Origin: Mucilaginibacter robiniae
GTDB taxonomy: Bacteria; Bacteroidota; Bacteroidia; Sphingobacteriales; Sphingobacteriaceae
DNA length: 64,000 nucleotides
Reading direction: 5' to 3'
NCBI RefSeq assembly: GCF_012849215.1
Contig: NZ_CP051682.1
Span: 2,604,001-2,668,000 of the forward strand
This document shows positions 35,561-40,063 of the stretch, in pieces. The notes under the pieces are model-generated. The model was not told the DNA's origin. It did not search any database and saw nothing but the letters and a program-made list of their open reading frames with translations. The stretch's first letter is position 1; every line of letters begins with the position of its first letter. The position numbers were made by a program, and so were the translations under genes.

Positions 35561-35568
35561 TATCTTTG
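35561..35568 (+). promoter_or_regulatory. -7 box of the thiamine operon promoter
   Basis: TATCTTTG matches TAnnTTTG and lies about 16 bases before the conserved core of the TPP riboswitch, the distance expected if transcription starts just ahead of the aptamer. The -33 element is weak. Confidence 0.65.
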
Positions 35569-35582
35569 CGGCATAATTTCTT

Positions 35583-35746
35583 AAGGGGTGCCTTGCTTTG
35601 AGCAATCAAACTGAAAGACAGGCTGAGATCATACCCATGGAGAGGAGTTAAAAGACTATAGTTGAAAGTTAAAAGATGTTTTAAACTTTCAATCTTTCAC
35701 TTTCAACTCCCCCAGCACCTGATCCGGGTAATGCCGGCGTAGGGAG
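35583..35746 (+). promoter_or_regulatory. TPP riboswitch (THI element) with an extra hairpin insertion
   Basis: The conserved blocks are present in order: GGGGTGCC at 35585-35592, a small hairpin TTGCTTTGAGCAA, GGCTGAGATCATACCC at 35621-35636, ACCTGATCCGGGTAATGCC starting at 35718, and GGCGTAGGGA ending about 35745. It binds thiamine pyrophosphate and turns down the downstream genes. Between the CTGAGA arm and the ACCTGATC arm lies an unusual insert of about 75 bases that folds into a tall hairpin (AGTTGAAAGT 35660-35669 with ACTTTCAACT 35699-35708, plus AAAGAT/ATCTTT inside). How it controls expression is not obvious; there is no clear T-rich terminator before the receptor gene, so translational control is more likely. 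Confidence 0.95.
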
Positions 35747-35825
35747 AGGTAACAAGTTAAGTGTACTGCACGCAATTTACACCCTTAGCGAGCAGATGGT
35801 TTAACGTAATGTTTTTATTTACATT

Positions 35826-38219
35826 TTGAAAAATTTTTACCTGGCTTTTGTAGCCTTGCTGTTGCCTGTAGTGGCTGCAGCCCAGTTTTCCGTATCCGGA
35901 AAAGTAACCGATCAGCAAACCGGACAGCCATTGCCTGGTGCTACTGTGAGTATTGCTAACCTGCAAAGTACCGTAACTAATGCCAATGGTAGCTATGAGC
36001 TTAGCAATGTTAAAGGCGGTAACTATACTGTTCTTGTTAGTTATGTGGGTTATCAGGCCTTGCCCAAAAGTGTAACAGTTCGGGGGAGCATGACGGTTAG
36101 CTTTGCCCTAATGCATAGTAATTTAATGACTGAAGATGTAACTGTAAGTGCTACCCGGGCATCAGCTAACTCGCCAACAGCCTTTACCAACCTCCGCAAA
36201 AAAGACTTACAGAAAAACAACTTAGGTCAGGATTTGCCATTTCTACTCGATCAGACGCCTTCGGCTGTAGTCACTTCCAATGCAGGGGCTGGTGTGGGGT
36301 ATACTGGTATTCGCATACGGGGTTCTGATGCTACCCGTATCAACGTAACATTAAATGGTATCCCATTAAATGATGCGGAAAGTCAAGGCGCTTTCTTTAT
36401 TGATTTACCTGATCTAGCATCATCAGTAGATAATATTCAAATACAACGTGGCGTAGGTACCTCAACCAATGGCGCTGGTGCTTTTGGGGCTAGTATCAAT
36501 ATTCAAACTACAACCCGGCAAGATACAGCCTATGCGCAGCTCGATAATTCGGCCGGTTCGTACGGAACGGTAAAAAATACCGTTAGCCTGGGTACTGGTT
36601 TGCTGGGTGGGCACTTCACGGTAGATGGCCGCTTATCGCGCGTGAACTCCGATGGGTATATTGATCGGGCATTCTCTAAGCTGAAATCGTTTTTCGTGAG
36701 CGGTGCTTATTATGGTAAAAGCAGCGTAGTACGCCTAAACGTATTTTCAGGTTACGAACAAACTTACCAAGCTTGGGATGGCGTACCGGAAGATAGTGTA
36801 CGCAAAGGCAACCGTCGGTACAATGAATTAGGTTACATTAACCGTACTGGAACGTATTATCCTAATCAAACGGATAATTATACGCAGAACCATTACCAGT
36901 TGCTCTACAATCAGCAAATTACGCCGAAGCTTTCCTTTGCGGGTGCCTTGCATTATACCAGAGGAGAAGGTTACTATGAAGAGTATAAGAATGATGCTAA
37001 GCTAACCAGTTATGGTGTTACACCAGCCATTGTTGGAGGTGATACCTTGAATGTTACCGACCTAGTACGCCGATTGTGGTTGAAGAATGATTTTTATGGG
37101 GTTACTTACAACTTTAAATATCAGCCGCAAAATAACTTGAACCTGACTTTGGGTGGTGCTTACAACGAATACCGCGGCGATCACTTTAACAATATTGAAT
37201 GGACCCAACAAAGCACTAATATTTTGCCCGATTATGAATATTCGCGCAATAAAGGGGTGAAGAAAGATTTCAACCTTTTTGGCCGGATAGATTACCGCAT
37301 AGGGCAAGTGTTATTGTATGGCGATATGCAGTACCGCCACATTAATTACTCGTTTCTGGGTTATGACCGGAATCTGAACAACGTACAGCAAGCTGTGCAG
37401 CTTAACTTCTTCAATCCGAAAGTTGGAGCTACCTACCTGATCGACGATCACAACAGTGTATATGCCTCATTTGCGGTAGGTAACCATGAGCCCAACCGTG
37501 ATGATTATGTAAATTCATCACCCGAAAGTCGCCCAAAATCTGAGAACCTGAAAGATTTTGAAGCAGGTTACCGTGTACGTGGTACCAATTTTACAGCAGG
37601 CATTAATGGCTTTTATATGCTTTACAAAAATCAGTTGGTGTTAACAGGCTCTTTAAACGATGTGGGTGAAGCTATCCGCACCAACATCAAAGATAGTTAC
37701 CGTACCGGTGTTGAGCTGGATGGTCGGGTAAGAATTATAGAGCAATTGAGTTGGGCAGCTAACGCCTCATTTAGTGCCAATAGGGTGAAAAACTTTCAAC
37801 AGTACTTGTATAACGTCGATACCGATAACACCGATTTATATGCTCAATATGGCAAAACCAATATTGCTTTTTCACCAAGTGTAGTAGCTTCTAGCGAAAT
37901 TAGCTACCATCCTATCAAGAATAGCGAAATTGCTTTTATCAGCAAATATGTAAGTCGGCAGTATCTGGACAATACCTCAACCGAAAGCCGTTCACTGAAC
38001 CCATATTTTGTAAGCAATGTAAGATTAGGCTATAGTTTCAGTGCTTTTTCTATCAAGAACATCGGTGTGAGTTTACTGGTGAATAACGTGTTCAGCAAAA
38101 AATATCAATCTGACGGAGCCACCTATCCAGACCTTGAAGGCGGCAAAGTGGTGAACTATAACTATTGGTTCGCGCAAGCTCCAATCAACTTTTTAGGGTC
38201 ATTGAGTTTAAGGTTTTAA
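35826..38219 (+). CDS. TonB-dependent receptor for thiamine (TPP-riboswitch controlled)
   Basis: This 797-residue outer membrane receptor has a signal peptide (ending VAAAQ). A carboxypeptidase-like domain comes next (SVSGKVTDQQTGQPLPGATV), then a plug with VTVSATRA and GVGYTGIRIRGSDATRINVT, and a barrel ending in SLRF with terminal Phe. No ATG start is available in frame; TTG at 35826 fits the signal peptide start. The TPP riboswitch directly upstream and the PnuT-like gene downstream identify the substrate as thiamine or a related compound, a set-up described for Bacteroidota by comparative genomics. It is a classical receptor rather than a SusC type. Confidence 0.9.
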   Translation: MKNFYLAFVALLLPVVAAAQFSVSGKVTDQQTGQPLPGATVSIANLQSTVTNANGSYELSNVKGGNYTVLVSYVGYQALPKSVTVRGSMTVSFALMHSNLMTEDVTVSATRASANSPTAFTNLRKKDLQKNNLGQDLPFLLDQTPSAVVTSNAGAGVGYTGIRIRGSDATRINVTLNGIPLNDAESQGAFFIDLPDLASSVDNIQIQRGVGTSTNGAGAFGASINIQTTTRQDTAYAQLDNSAGSYGTVKNTVSLGTGLLGGHFTVDGRLSRVNSDGYIDRAFSKLKSFFVSGAYYGKSSVVRLNVFSGYEQTYQAWDGVPEDSVRKGNRRYNELGYINRTGTYYPNQTDNYTQNHYQLLYNQQITPKLSFAGALHYTRGEGYYEEYKNDAKLTSYGVTPAIVGGDTLNVTDLVRRLWLKNDFYGVTYNFKYQPQNNLNLTLGGAYNEYRGDHFNNIEWTQQSTNILPDYEYSRNKGVKKDFNLFGRIDYRIGQVLLYGDMQYRHINYSFLGYDRNLNNVQQAVQLNFFNPKVGATYLIDDHNSVYASFAVGNHEPNRDDYVNSSPESRPKSENLKDFEAGYRVRGTNFTAGINGFYMLYKNQLVLTGSLNDVGEAIRTNIKDSYRTGVELDGRVRIIEQLSWAANASFSANRVKNFQQYLYNVDTDNTDLYAQYGKTNIAFSPSVVASSEISYHPIKNSEIAFISKYVSRQYLDNTSTESRSLNPYFVSNVRLGYSFSAFSIKNIGVSLLVNNVFSKKYQSDGATYPDLEGGKVVNYNYWFAQAPINFLGSLSLRF

Positions 38220-38230
38220 AAACAAGATTT

Positions 38231-38316
38231 GTCATTGCGAGGCGTATCAACAACGAAGCAATCTCATTGGTTTATCAATGAAGCAACGGAATTGCTACGC
38301 TGACACTCGCAATGAC
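38231..38316. repeat. REP-like element GTCATTGCGAG...CTCGCAATGAC
   Basis: GTCATTGCGAG (38231-38241) and CTCGCAATGAC (38306-38316) form perfect arms, with GAAGCAAT and ATTGCT-type inner pairing between them. The GTCATTGCGAGG...GAAGCAATCTC pattern is a widespread extragenic repeat in bacteria as I recall it. It sits in the 114-base gap between the receptor and pnuT genes. Confidence 0.75.
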
Positions 38317-38333
38317 ATTAAAGGAGAATAGTA

Positions 38334-38960
38334 ATGCAACACTGGGCAGACCTTTTGCTGGAGCAAATACGGCAAACTACTGGGTTAGAATGGGTGGCAG
38401 TGATATTCGGTATAGCCGAAGTATTACTAGCCCGTAAAAATAACGTGTTGTTATATCCTGCGGGTATAGCCGGTTCAGCTATTTCTATATTTCTATTTAT
38501 TGAAGCCGGTTTATTTGCCGATGCCAGCTTAAACGGCTACTATGTGCTGATGAGCTTGTATGGCTGGATAATCTGGAGCCGTCGTAAAAACGAGCCGCCG
38601 GTACAAATAGCACATGCCAATGGCCGGGAATGGTTAATTACAGCCTTGATTGCTTTTGTTGGATGGGGTGTAATCTATTTCATTCTGAAGAATTATACTT
38701 CATCAACAGTGCCGGTTTCTGATGCATGGGTATCCTCATCAGCGTGGGCAGGTACCTGGTTGCTGGCCCGGCGACGTATTGAAAATTGGGTGGTACTCAA
38801 TATATCTAATCTGTTTGCCATACCGTTACTGTTTTACAAGCATTTGCCGCTGTTTGCCTTATTAACGTTGTTTTTATTTGTGATTGCAATTTTGGGTTAT
38901 TACGACTGGCGAAAATTATATCGGGAACAAATTATTAAATCTTCTAATCTGCTGGCATGA
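38334..38960 (+). CDS. pnuT: PnuC-family transporter, probable thiamine importer PnuT
   Basis: This 208-residue inner membrane protein has about seven hydrophobic helices and the PnuC pattern: ARKNNVLLYPAGIAGSAISI early, YVLMSLYGWIIWSRR in the middle, and ARRRIENWVVLNISNLFAIP towards the end. PnuC proteins carry nicotinamide riboside; the PnuT branch carries thiamine and is typically under TPP riboswitch control. The riboswitch and receptor upstream support PnuT. Its stop codon overlaps the start of the flavoprotein gene in an ATGA junction. Confidence 0.9.
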   Translation: MQHWADLLLEQIRQTTGLEWVAVIFGIAEVLLARKNNVLLYPAGIAGSAISIFLFIEAGLFADASLNGYYVLMSLYGWIIWSRRKNEPPVQIAHANGREWLITALIAFVGWGVIYFILKNYTSSTVPVSDAWVSSSAWAGTWLLARRRIENWVVLNISNLFAIPLLFYKHLPLFALLTLFLFVIAILGYYDWRKLYREQIIKSSNLLA

Positions 38961-40063
38961 GAACTGAACCACATCCATCGGCCTTATTAAAACCGGAATG
39001 GGTAAGCATTATTCGTATCCATGCATTTGCAGCCGAGCAGCAGGGCGAGTTGCAGCCTGAACAACTGGAACTGATTTATTTACAGCAGTGGTTTAAAATG
39101 TTGGTACCTACGGTTTACGGCGGTTCTGAATTGCCCTTGCCTGATATGGTGCGTTTAGAAGAAGCCTTGAGCTGGGCCGATGGTAGCTTGGGCTGGGTAA
39201 TTACCTTATGTGCTGGTGCAGCCTGGTTCGGCGGCTTTATAGCGCCTGATGCTGCGAAAGAAATATTTGCCAATCCTAAAGTATGCTTAGCAGGTAGTGG
39301 TGCCAGTACAGGTACTGCTAACTCAACCGAAAATAGCTATCTGCTTAATGGTAGTTGGAAATATGCCAGTGGCGTACGTCATGCTACTCATTTTACAGCT
39401 AATTGCTTGGTTGAACAAGATGAGGAAGTCTTGTCGTATGCAAACAACAATCCGTTGGTGCAATCCTTTGTTGTAGATGCACAAAAGGCTGAATTGATTC
39501 CGGCTTGGAAATATATAGGCATGATGGGCACGGGGAGCCATGCTTTTCGTTTTGAGAATGTAGAGGTGCCAGCCAATCGCTGCTTTAAAATAGATGGTGC
39601 AGCTGCTTATGTGAATACCCCACTGTATCGTTATCCCTTTTTGCAATTGGCAGAAGCTACGCTGGCTGCCAACTTATCAGGTATGGCGATACACTTTGTA
39701 GATTTATGCGAGCCTGTGCTGATGGAAAAGATGCAGCAGCCTAAATTAACAGAAAAGCAACACCATGTACTTAAAAGTACGTTGCAGGAGGTGAAAGATA
39801 ATCTACAAGGCATACGTGCCCAGTTTTACCATGCACTGGATGCTTCGTGGCAGGCTGGTGTATCAGCAGAAAACATAGATGACCACTACCTAAAGGCTGT
39901 AAGCAATTCAAGCCGTTTACTGGCGCAGATAGCCCGCGAAAGTGTAGATGCCTTATATCCTTATTGTGGCTTATGGGCAGCATCGCCTGATACAGAATTA
40001 AATTTGGTGTGGCGCGATTTACATACGGCCAGTCAGCACTCGCTACTTACGTTTACTGAATAA
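38957..40063 (+). CDS. Acyl-CoA dehydrogenase-fold flavoprotein (class D flavin monooxygenase-like)
   Basis: This 368-residue soluble protein shows the acyl-CoA dehydrogenase fold: an N-terminal helical part with WFKMLVPTVYGGSELPLPDM, a middle beta domain (YLLNGSWKYASGVRHATHFT; KYIGMMGTGSHAFRFENVEV) and a C-terminal helical bundle ending RDLHTASQHSLLTF. The last motif and the lack of the usual catalytic Glu pattern resemble flavin-dependent hydroxylases such as HsaA and DszC more than true acyl-CoA dehydrogenases. The 4-base overlap with pnuT ties it to the TPP-controlled unit. It has no established place in thiamine uptake; a role in salvaging or modifying a thiamine-related compound is a hypothesis. 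Confidence 0.8.
   Translation: MRTEPHPSALLKPEWVSIIRIHAFAAEQQGELQPEQLELIYLQQWFKMLVPTVYGGSELPLPDMVRLEEALSWADGSLGWVITLCAGAAWFGGFIAPDAAKEIFANPKVCLAGSGASTGTANSTENSYLLNGSWKYASGVRHATHFTANCLVEQDEEVLSYANNNPLVQSFVVDAQKAELIPAWKYIGMMGTGSHAFRFENVEVPANRCFKIDGAAAYVNTPLYRYPFLQLAEATLAANLSGMAIHFVDLCEPVLMEKMQQPKLTEKQHHVLKSTLQEVKDNLQGIRAQFYHALDASWQAGVSAENIDDHYLKAVSNSSRLLAQIARESVDALYPYCGLWAASPDTELNLVWRDLHTASQHSLLTFTE

Follow-up and report, generated by a model that had tools for sequence, protein, structure and literature searches.

The uptake and activation of vitamin B1 have been treated as a solved matter, needing a transporter and a pyrophosphokinase. In Bacteroides, known operons couple the transporter PnuT with thiamine pyrophosphokinase (TPK; PMC5613172). 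An operon of Mucilaginibacter robiniae, found within a stretch of 64,000 nucleotides that is referred to here as the window, raises the question of what a flavoprotein is doing next to the same transporter. The OMthi and pnuT-tnr3 loci of Bacteroides thetaiotaomicron also have a TPP riboswitch, a TonB-type outer-membrane receptor and an inner-membrane PnuT, but there the third gene is the thiamine pyrophosphokinase tnr3 (PMC5613172), whereas here a flavin monooxygenase-type protein follows pnuT. The parts are of known kinds; no description of their coupling, PnuT with a group D monooxygenase in a TPP-riboswitch operon, was found in the open-access papers that were searched, and nothing relevant came up there on PnuT in connection with an acyl-CoA dehydrogenase, a monooxygenase or the loss of TPK.

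The operon runs in the order TPP riboswitch, TonB receptor, PnuT and flavoprotein, with all genes on the plus strand, and spans positions 35574-40063 of the window (Table 1). This is the arrangement given in the initial annotation, and it is borne out by the matches to RF00059, PF04973 and PF08028 and by the sequence ATGA at 38957-38960, in which the pnuT stop and the flavoprotein start overlap by 4 bases. The start of the receptor as listed is TTG and the real start may differ; a receptor orthologue occupies the same position in 71 of 80 named relatives. No promoter- or terminator-like excess that would suggest a separate promoter for the flavoenzyme was seen in a scan of sigma-70 type, a scope from which Bacteroidota promoters differ.

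Table 1. Coordinates of the operon (window positions) and of related genes at other loci
Feature	Position	Strand	Remarks
TPP riboswitch aptamer, RF00059	35574..35762	+	48.8 bits, E 1.3e-8, full model matched
TonB-dependent receptor, CarboxypepD_reg N-terminal domain	35826..38219	+	putative thiamine/TPP outer-membrane importer
Inverted repeat TGTCATTGCGAG.../...CTCGCAATGACA	38230..38317	.	between receptor and pnuT; hairpin like that of a repeat element
PnuT, predicted thiamine transporter of PnuC family	38334..38960	+	PF04973, E 1.1e-50
Flavoprotein, 368 aa, ACAD fold, predicted group D oxygenase component	38957..40063	+	PF08028, E 4.8e-8
TPK-like gene, genome of the window	G000:C1:2900453-2901016 (L170:7454-8023)		phosphodiesterase and transposase-like ORF upstream
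TPK-like genes, relatives	L157:10099-10668; L033:3159-3722; L071:3339-3905		
Type I phosphodiesterase/nucleotide pyrophosphatase	L033:4456-6093; L157:8211-9896; L170:3427-5076; L218:12426-14114		in or near thiamine uptake operon

The riboswitch lies about 64 nt upstream of the receptor start. Its score is below the RF00059 gathering score of 54.3, and a search at that cut-off does not report it; a 76-nt insertion within P3 is the probable cause. It is identified as a TPP riboswitch, with predicted TPP binding and gene control, by the covariance-model match and by a conserved aptamer core, of which CTGAGAT and CACCTGATCCGGGTAATGCCGGCGTAGGGA recur unchanged in relatives that share the operon; a full-genome RF00059 search also recovers its 3' part (C1:2639680-2639762). 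The P3 insertion (window 35640-35715) is a long A/T-rich hairpin whose sequence varies by genus, yet it is present in all aligned relatives. The inverted repeat downstream of the receptor gave two matches where 0.07 were expected; it resembles a mobile repeat element and occurs as a single copy within the window.

Membership of the PnuC family, the TPP-riboswitch context and its distinctness from the nicotinamide-riboside PnuC mark the transporter as PnuT, with thiamine as its predicted cargo. Carriers of this family are facilitators of low selectivity. A separate PnuC paralogue adjoins a NadR-like gene and therefore probably carries nicotinamide riboside; this neighbour led us to reject the paralogue as the thiamine importer of genomes that lack PnuT.

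The flavoenzyme itself gave weak acyl-CoA dehydrogenase (ACAD) domain matches in Pfam, the best being the C-terminal Acyl-CoA_dh_2. Among NCBIfam models the best were HsaA (E 6.5e-28) and the oxygenase of p-hydroxyphenylacetate hydroxylase (HPAH), and it is the equivalog of neither, with 97.6 bits against a cut-off of 450 and 63.3 bits against 650, respectively. The closest PDB relatives by sequence are Rv3094c, HsaA, XiaF and HPAH C2. An AlphaFold model (pLDDT 94.3, pTM 0.93) gave the same picture in a fold search: Rv3094c was matched with Z 44.6 and an rmsd of 2.0 over 348 residues, HsaA with Z 43 and HPAH C2 with Z 41.6. Acyl-CoA dehydrogenases scored about 33-35, as against 41-45 for group D oxygenases, and an assignment as a dehydrogenase was rejected. 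Although the Pfam domains and the overall fold are common to both, the flavoenzyme has a C-terminal RDxxTASQH where the usual catalytic glutamate region of the dehydrogenases lies. The nearest named homologues are from Mucilaginibacter, at 71% identity; among 102 records of a plasmid collection only distant matches were found, none of which reaches 60% identity; the ten that were listed are 26-28% identical.

The residues of the flavin site are consistent with this grouping. The motif WRDLHTASQHS is present, and R353, Q360 and H361 are invariant among 28 aligned homologues that are 33-67% identical to the flavoenzyme. W80, S/T138, W184 and H361 are likewise conserved in all 28 and align with W80, S138, W174 and H351, the FMN-site residues of Rv3094c (PMC9904262). 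This group D enzyme of Mycobacterium tuberculosis (7f70/7f72/7f74) shares the full-length fold at 22% identity, but its gene is transcribed together with that of a flavin reductase and its substrate is ethionamide (PMC9904262), whereas no reductase was seen near the window flavoenzyme, whose context is thiamine uptake. In addition W115 of Rv3094c is an invariant glycine in the window flavoenzyme and its aligned homologues, and therefore the pocket beside the flavin should differ. When L056 and L070, a pair of divergent homologues that lack PnuT, are set aside, T83, C85, T235, N239 and T357 do not vary among the remaining 26 aligned sequences and are therefore candidate substrate contacts. HsaA and HPAH C2 also share the position of the C-terminal histidine. 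By sequence, model and the invariant flavin-site histidine the protein groups with the two-component flavin monooxygenases of group D, as the likeness to class D monooxygenases remarked on in the initial annotation had suggested. Monooxygenase activity would follow from this grouping; no flavin reductase partner was seen among the operon neighbours that were read, and a reductase encoded elsewhere would be expected to serve the enzyme. Taken alone, the operon and the enzyme class are held with high confidence.

A survey of 201 genomes of the family showed how closely the enzyme is bound to the transporter. The flavoenzyme was found in 122 genomes and a PnuT orthologue in 117; every one of these 117 encodes the flavoenzyme, which in 116 lies directly downstream on the same strand, with a gap of -8 to 226 nt (co-occurrence by Fisher test 1.7e-50, kinship of the genomes being ignored). 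The pair also occurs outside this family, in three or more others (G462, G289 and G581; G513; G405). It is clear that the association is not limited to one strain, the finding by which the initial annotation would have been overturned. Only the pair is constant; it is usually last in its operon, and its neighbours on either side differ between genera. Upstream lies the TonB receptor in Mucilaginibacter-like genomes and elsewhere a topoisomerase-like or malate:quinone oxidoreductase-like gene, these two names coming from reading of the translations. With the Rfam model a TPP aptamer was found before the pair in 20 of 32 PnuT genomes; the aptamer core pattern, which had no match in 2 Mb of reversed sequence, precedes the pair at 85 of 109 loci and in three of the genomes outside the family. 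The distance from aptamer to pnuT is 18-114 nt, or about 2.5 kb where the receptor intervenes. At several pair loci of Sphingobacterium- and Olivibacter-like genomes (genus names that are guesses) no TPP aptamer was found; this could reflect either its absence or a very extended form.

PnuT-less relatives keep the rest of the operon, that is the TPP riboswitch, receptor, phosphodiesterase, ThiE-like and TPK-like genes, without the flavoenzyme; in G021, G005 and G036, for example, receptor and phosphodiesterase are retained beside a ThiE-like gene and/or the TPK descendant. The flavoenzyme is therefore tied to PnuT and not to the rest. Homologues without an adjoining PnuT were found in five of the 122 family genomes, in three Flavobacterium and in three genomes of another family, and from these other settings it follows that PnuT is not necessarily required for the reaction. 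In a tree of 88 homologues the PnuT-linked proteins gather in a single large group that also encloses several detached members, and the unlinked deeper relatives lie outside it; the nine label changes counted on this tree are an overestimate, as L037, L161 and L195 were labelled “none” though PnuT lies upstream. The homologues of the other family (L187, L189 and L191) stand beside EstA-like secreted esterases, L187 also beside a GMC oxidoreductase, and those of Flavobacterium (L152, L154 and L158) follow a porin of the phosphate-selective type.

The canonical TPK (PF04263) was found in none of the 201 family genomes, by a search that did detect it in Bacteroides and, across the phylum, in 194 of 395 genomes. 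However, the remark in the initial annotation that TPK was not seen, true of the window, does not mean that the gene is simply missing: a degenerate orthologue lies elsewhere in the genome, and in many relatives it is part of the same operon. This protein of 190 aa (start MSSHHIVREKQEPALL) is kept in 178 of the 201 genomes. In many Mucilaginibacter operons receptor, pnuT and flavoenzyme are followed by genes for a type I phosphodiesterase, a ThiE-like protein and this TPK-like protein, in that order. It has no significant Pfam match and a phmmer-type search of the PDB gave none; its kinship was visible only by fold search and by comparison with flavobacterial TPKs. The first 14 matches in the fold search with its model (pLDDT 89.9) are all TPKs, the best being that of B. 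thetaiotaomicron (2omk; Z 16.6, rmsd 2.5, 174 residues), and most of its length aligns at 29-40% identity with intact TPKs of flavobacterial type, whose N-terminus it shares. The motifs GDFD, TDLEKA, ADHTITN and GSSN are deleted or replaced in nine aligned family sequences, and the copy in the genome of the window retains only GD of GDFD. An active but divergent TPK was rejected as an identity for this protein, since the fold agrees and the catalytic motifs do not; the family's TPK descendant looks catalytically dead.

Genes for thiamine synthesis bear on what the substrate might be; they were inventoried with profile or concatenated-protein searches. ThiC is present in 55 of the 117 pair-bearing genomes and absent from 62, and thus the flavoenzyme is not tied to de novo thiamine synthesis. 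Among 30 pair-bearing genomes without ThiC, six had no match to any ThiE-family protein and 27 had no TenA. By profile search ThiC, ThiE and TenA are all absent from at least six pair-bearing genomes (G051, G106, G001, G002, G026 and G071), and in a wider inventory four of these (G051, G001, G002 and G026) gave no match for ThiD or ThiG. The genome of the window itself has no ThiC, ThiD, ThiG or TenA by these searches and only a divergent ThiE-like protein. In the six genomes, known enzymes could therefore not put pyrimidine and thiazole pieces back together, a role in salvaging fragments would be useless, and the likely cargo is an intact thiamine skeleton.

A possible working of the pair can be put together from these observations. 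When TPP is low, the riboswitch would permit expression of the operon, TPP presumably acting to repress it. The TonB receptor and PnuT would then import thiamine along with thiamine-like molecules. The oxygenase, supplied with O2 and with FMN or FAD that a flavin reductase encoded elsewhere in the genome has reduced, would oxygenate a compound with the thiamine skeleton that arrives via PnuT, the substrate being presumed to be PnuT's own cargo. As a result a modified thiamine might be repaired or an analogue inactivated before it is pyrophosphorylated, the choice between the two being a guess. This account builds on the operon, the co-occurrence with PnuT, the fold, the group D identity and the conservation of the flavin site. 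As a joint statement, that the flavoprotein serves as oxygenase component in a two-component group D system and is an obligate partner of PnuT, acting on a PnuT-imported compound with the thiamine skeleton, we would give it an even chance. More tentatively, these flavoenzymes could represent a group D subfamily dedicated to thiamine acquisition, oxygenating such an imported compound, by a repair or detoxification reaction new to vitamin B1, in bacteria whose TPK has decayed.

The initial annotation had proposed an undescribed salvage step on a thiamine precursor or breakdown product. Membership of a TPP-riboswitch operon and a wide association are borne out. The TPP-riboswitch operon, the ThiE-like gene downstream in many Mucilaginibacter operons and the ThiC of the 55 pair-bearing genomes would suit an enzyme that oxidises a pyrimidine or thiazole piece imported by PnuT, from which ThiD, ThiE and ThiL would rebuild thiamine phosphate. 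The six genomes that carry the pair without ThiC, ThiE and TenA, four of them also without ThiD or ThiG, and the meagre set in the genome of the window stand against this, and salvage from pieces into TPP is improbable. A substrate with an intact thiamine skeleton, repaired or detoxified, is more likely, being most consistent with all of the genomes. Alternatively, the flavoenzyme might belong to a pathway, so far undescribed, that leads from thiamine to TPP in place of the lost TPK. It is the partner of PnuT here, as TPK is in Bacteroides (PMC5613172), the family has only the degenerate orthologue, and in the phylum sample the canonical TPK is absent from 13 of 14 pair-bearing genomes as against 188 of 381 others (p 0.0016). 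However, phosphate transfer is impossible for a monooxygenase; outside the family the anticorrelation (4 of 5, p 0.37) is not significant; G405 has both the pair and a canonical TPK, so the flavoenzyme is not simply a stand-in for the kinase; and TPK is also missing from many ThiC-less genomes that do not carry the pair, so the TPK step must be carried out by other means. Such a replacement is improbable.

Detoxification, one half of the preferred reading, might also be the whole of it, with PnuT admitting toxic analogues and the oxygenase inactivating them. Toxic thiamine analogues include 2'-methoxythiamine, oxythiamine and pyrithiamine. A role of this kind needs no thi synthesis gene and fits a flavoenzyme that appears and disappears together with PnuT; furthermore, the relative Rv3094c S-oxygenates a small drug, ethionamide (PMC9904262). 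Control by TPP, however, would remove the protection at times of ample thiamine, and this makes sense only if the analogues enter mainly through PnuT; detoxification as the sole role is unlikely. The enzyme could instead perform a reaction that benefits the cell under thiamine shortage, its substrate being, for instance, some other small molecule that PnuT carries or the cell makes. The PnuT-less homologues, with secreted esterases, a GMC oxidoreductase or a porin as neighbours, are in keeping with this, but the adjacency in 116 of 117 genomes holds in genera that have diverged deeply (identities as low as 32%) and therefore favours a shared small-molecule link; an unrelated substrate is thus unlikely.

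The family pairs its vitamin B1 transporter with a flavoenzyme predicted to insert oxygen and has no recognisable intact pyrophosphokinase. This pairing, under a riboswitch that senses the vitamin, points to an undescribed step in obtaining or guarding vitamin B1. If the flavoenzyme does act on a thiamine compound, a new reaction would be added to B1 metabolism, and selection within cells for or against the thiamine-like molecules of soil and water would be suggested.

The type I phosphodiesterase found in or near the thiamine uptake operon (Table 1) perhaps dephosphorylates external TPP. A second TPP riboswitch (71.5 bits) was observed at L073:12390-15004 (G000:C1:996389-999003, minus strand). 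It controls a methyltransferase, an AIR-synthase/ThiL-like protein and a ThiE-like protein, all far under the equivalog cut-offs; the same trio occurs in G003, G017 and G039 and is possibly a thiamine-related pathway of a new kind.
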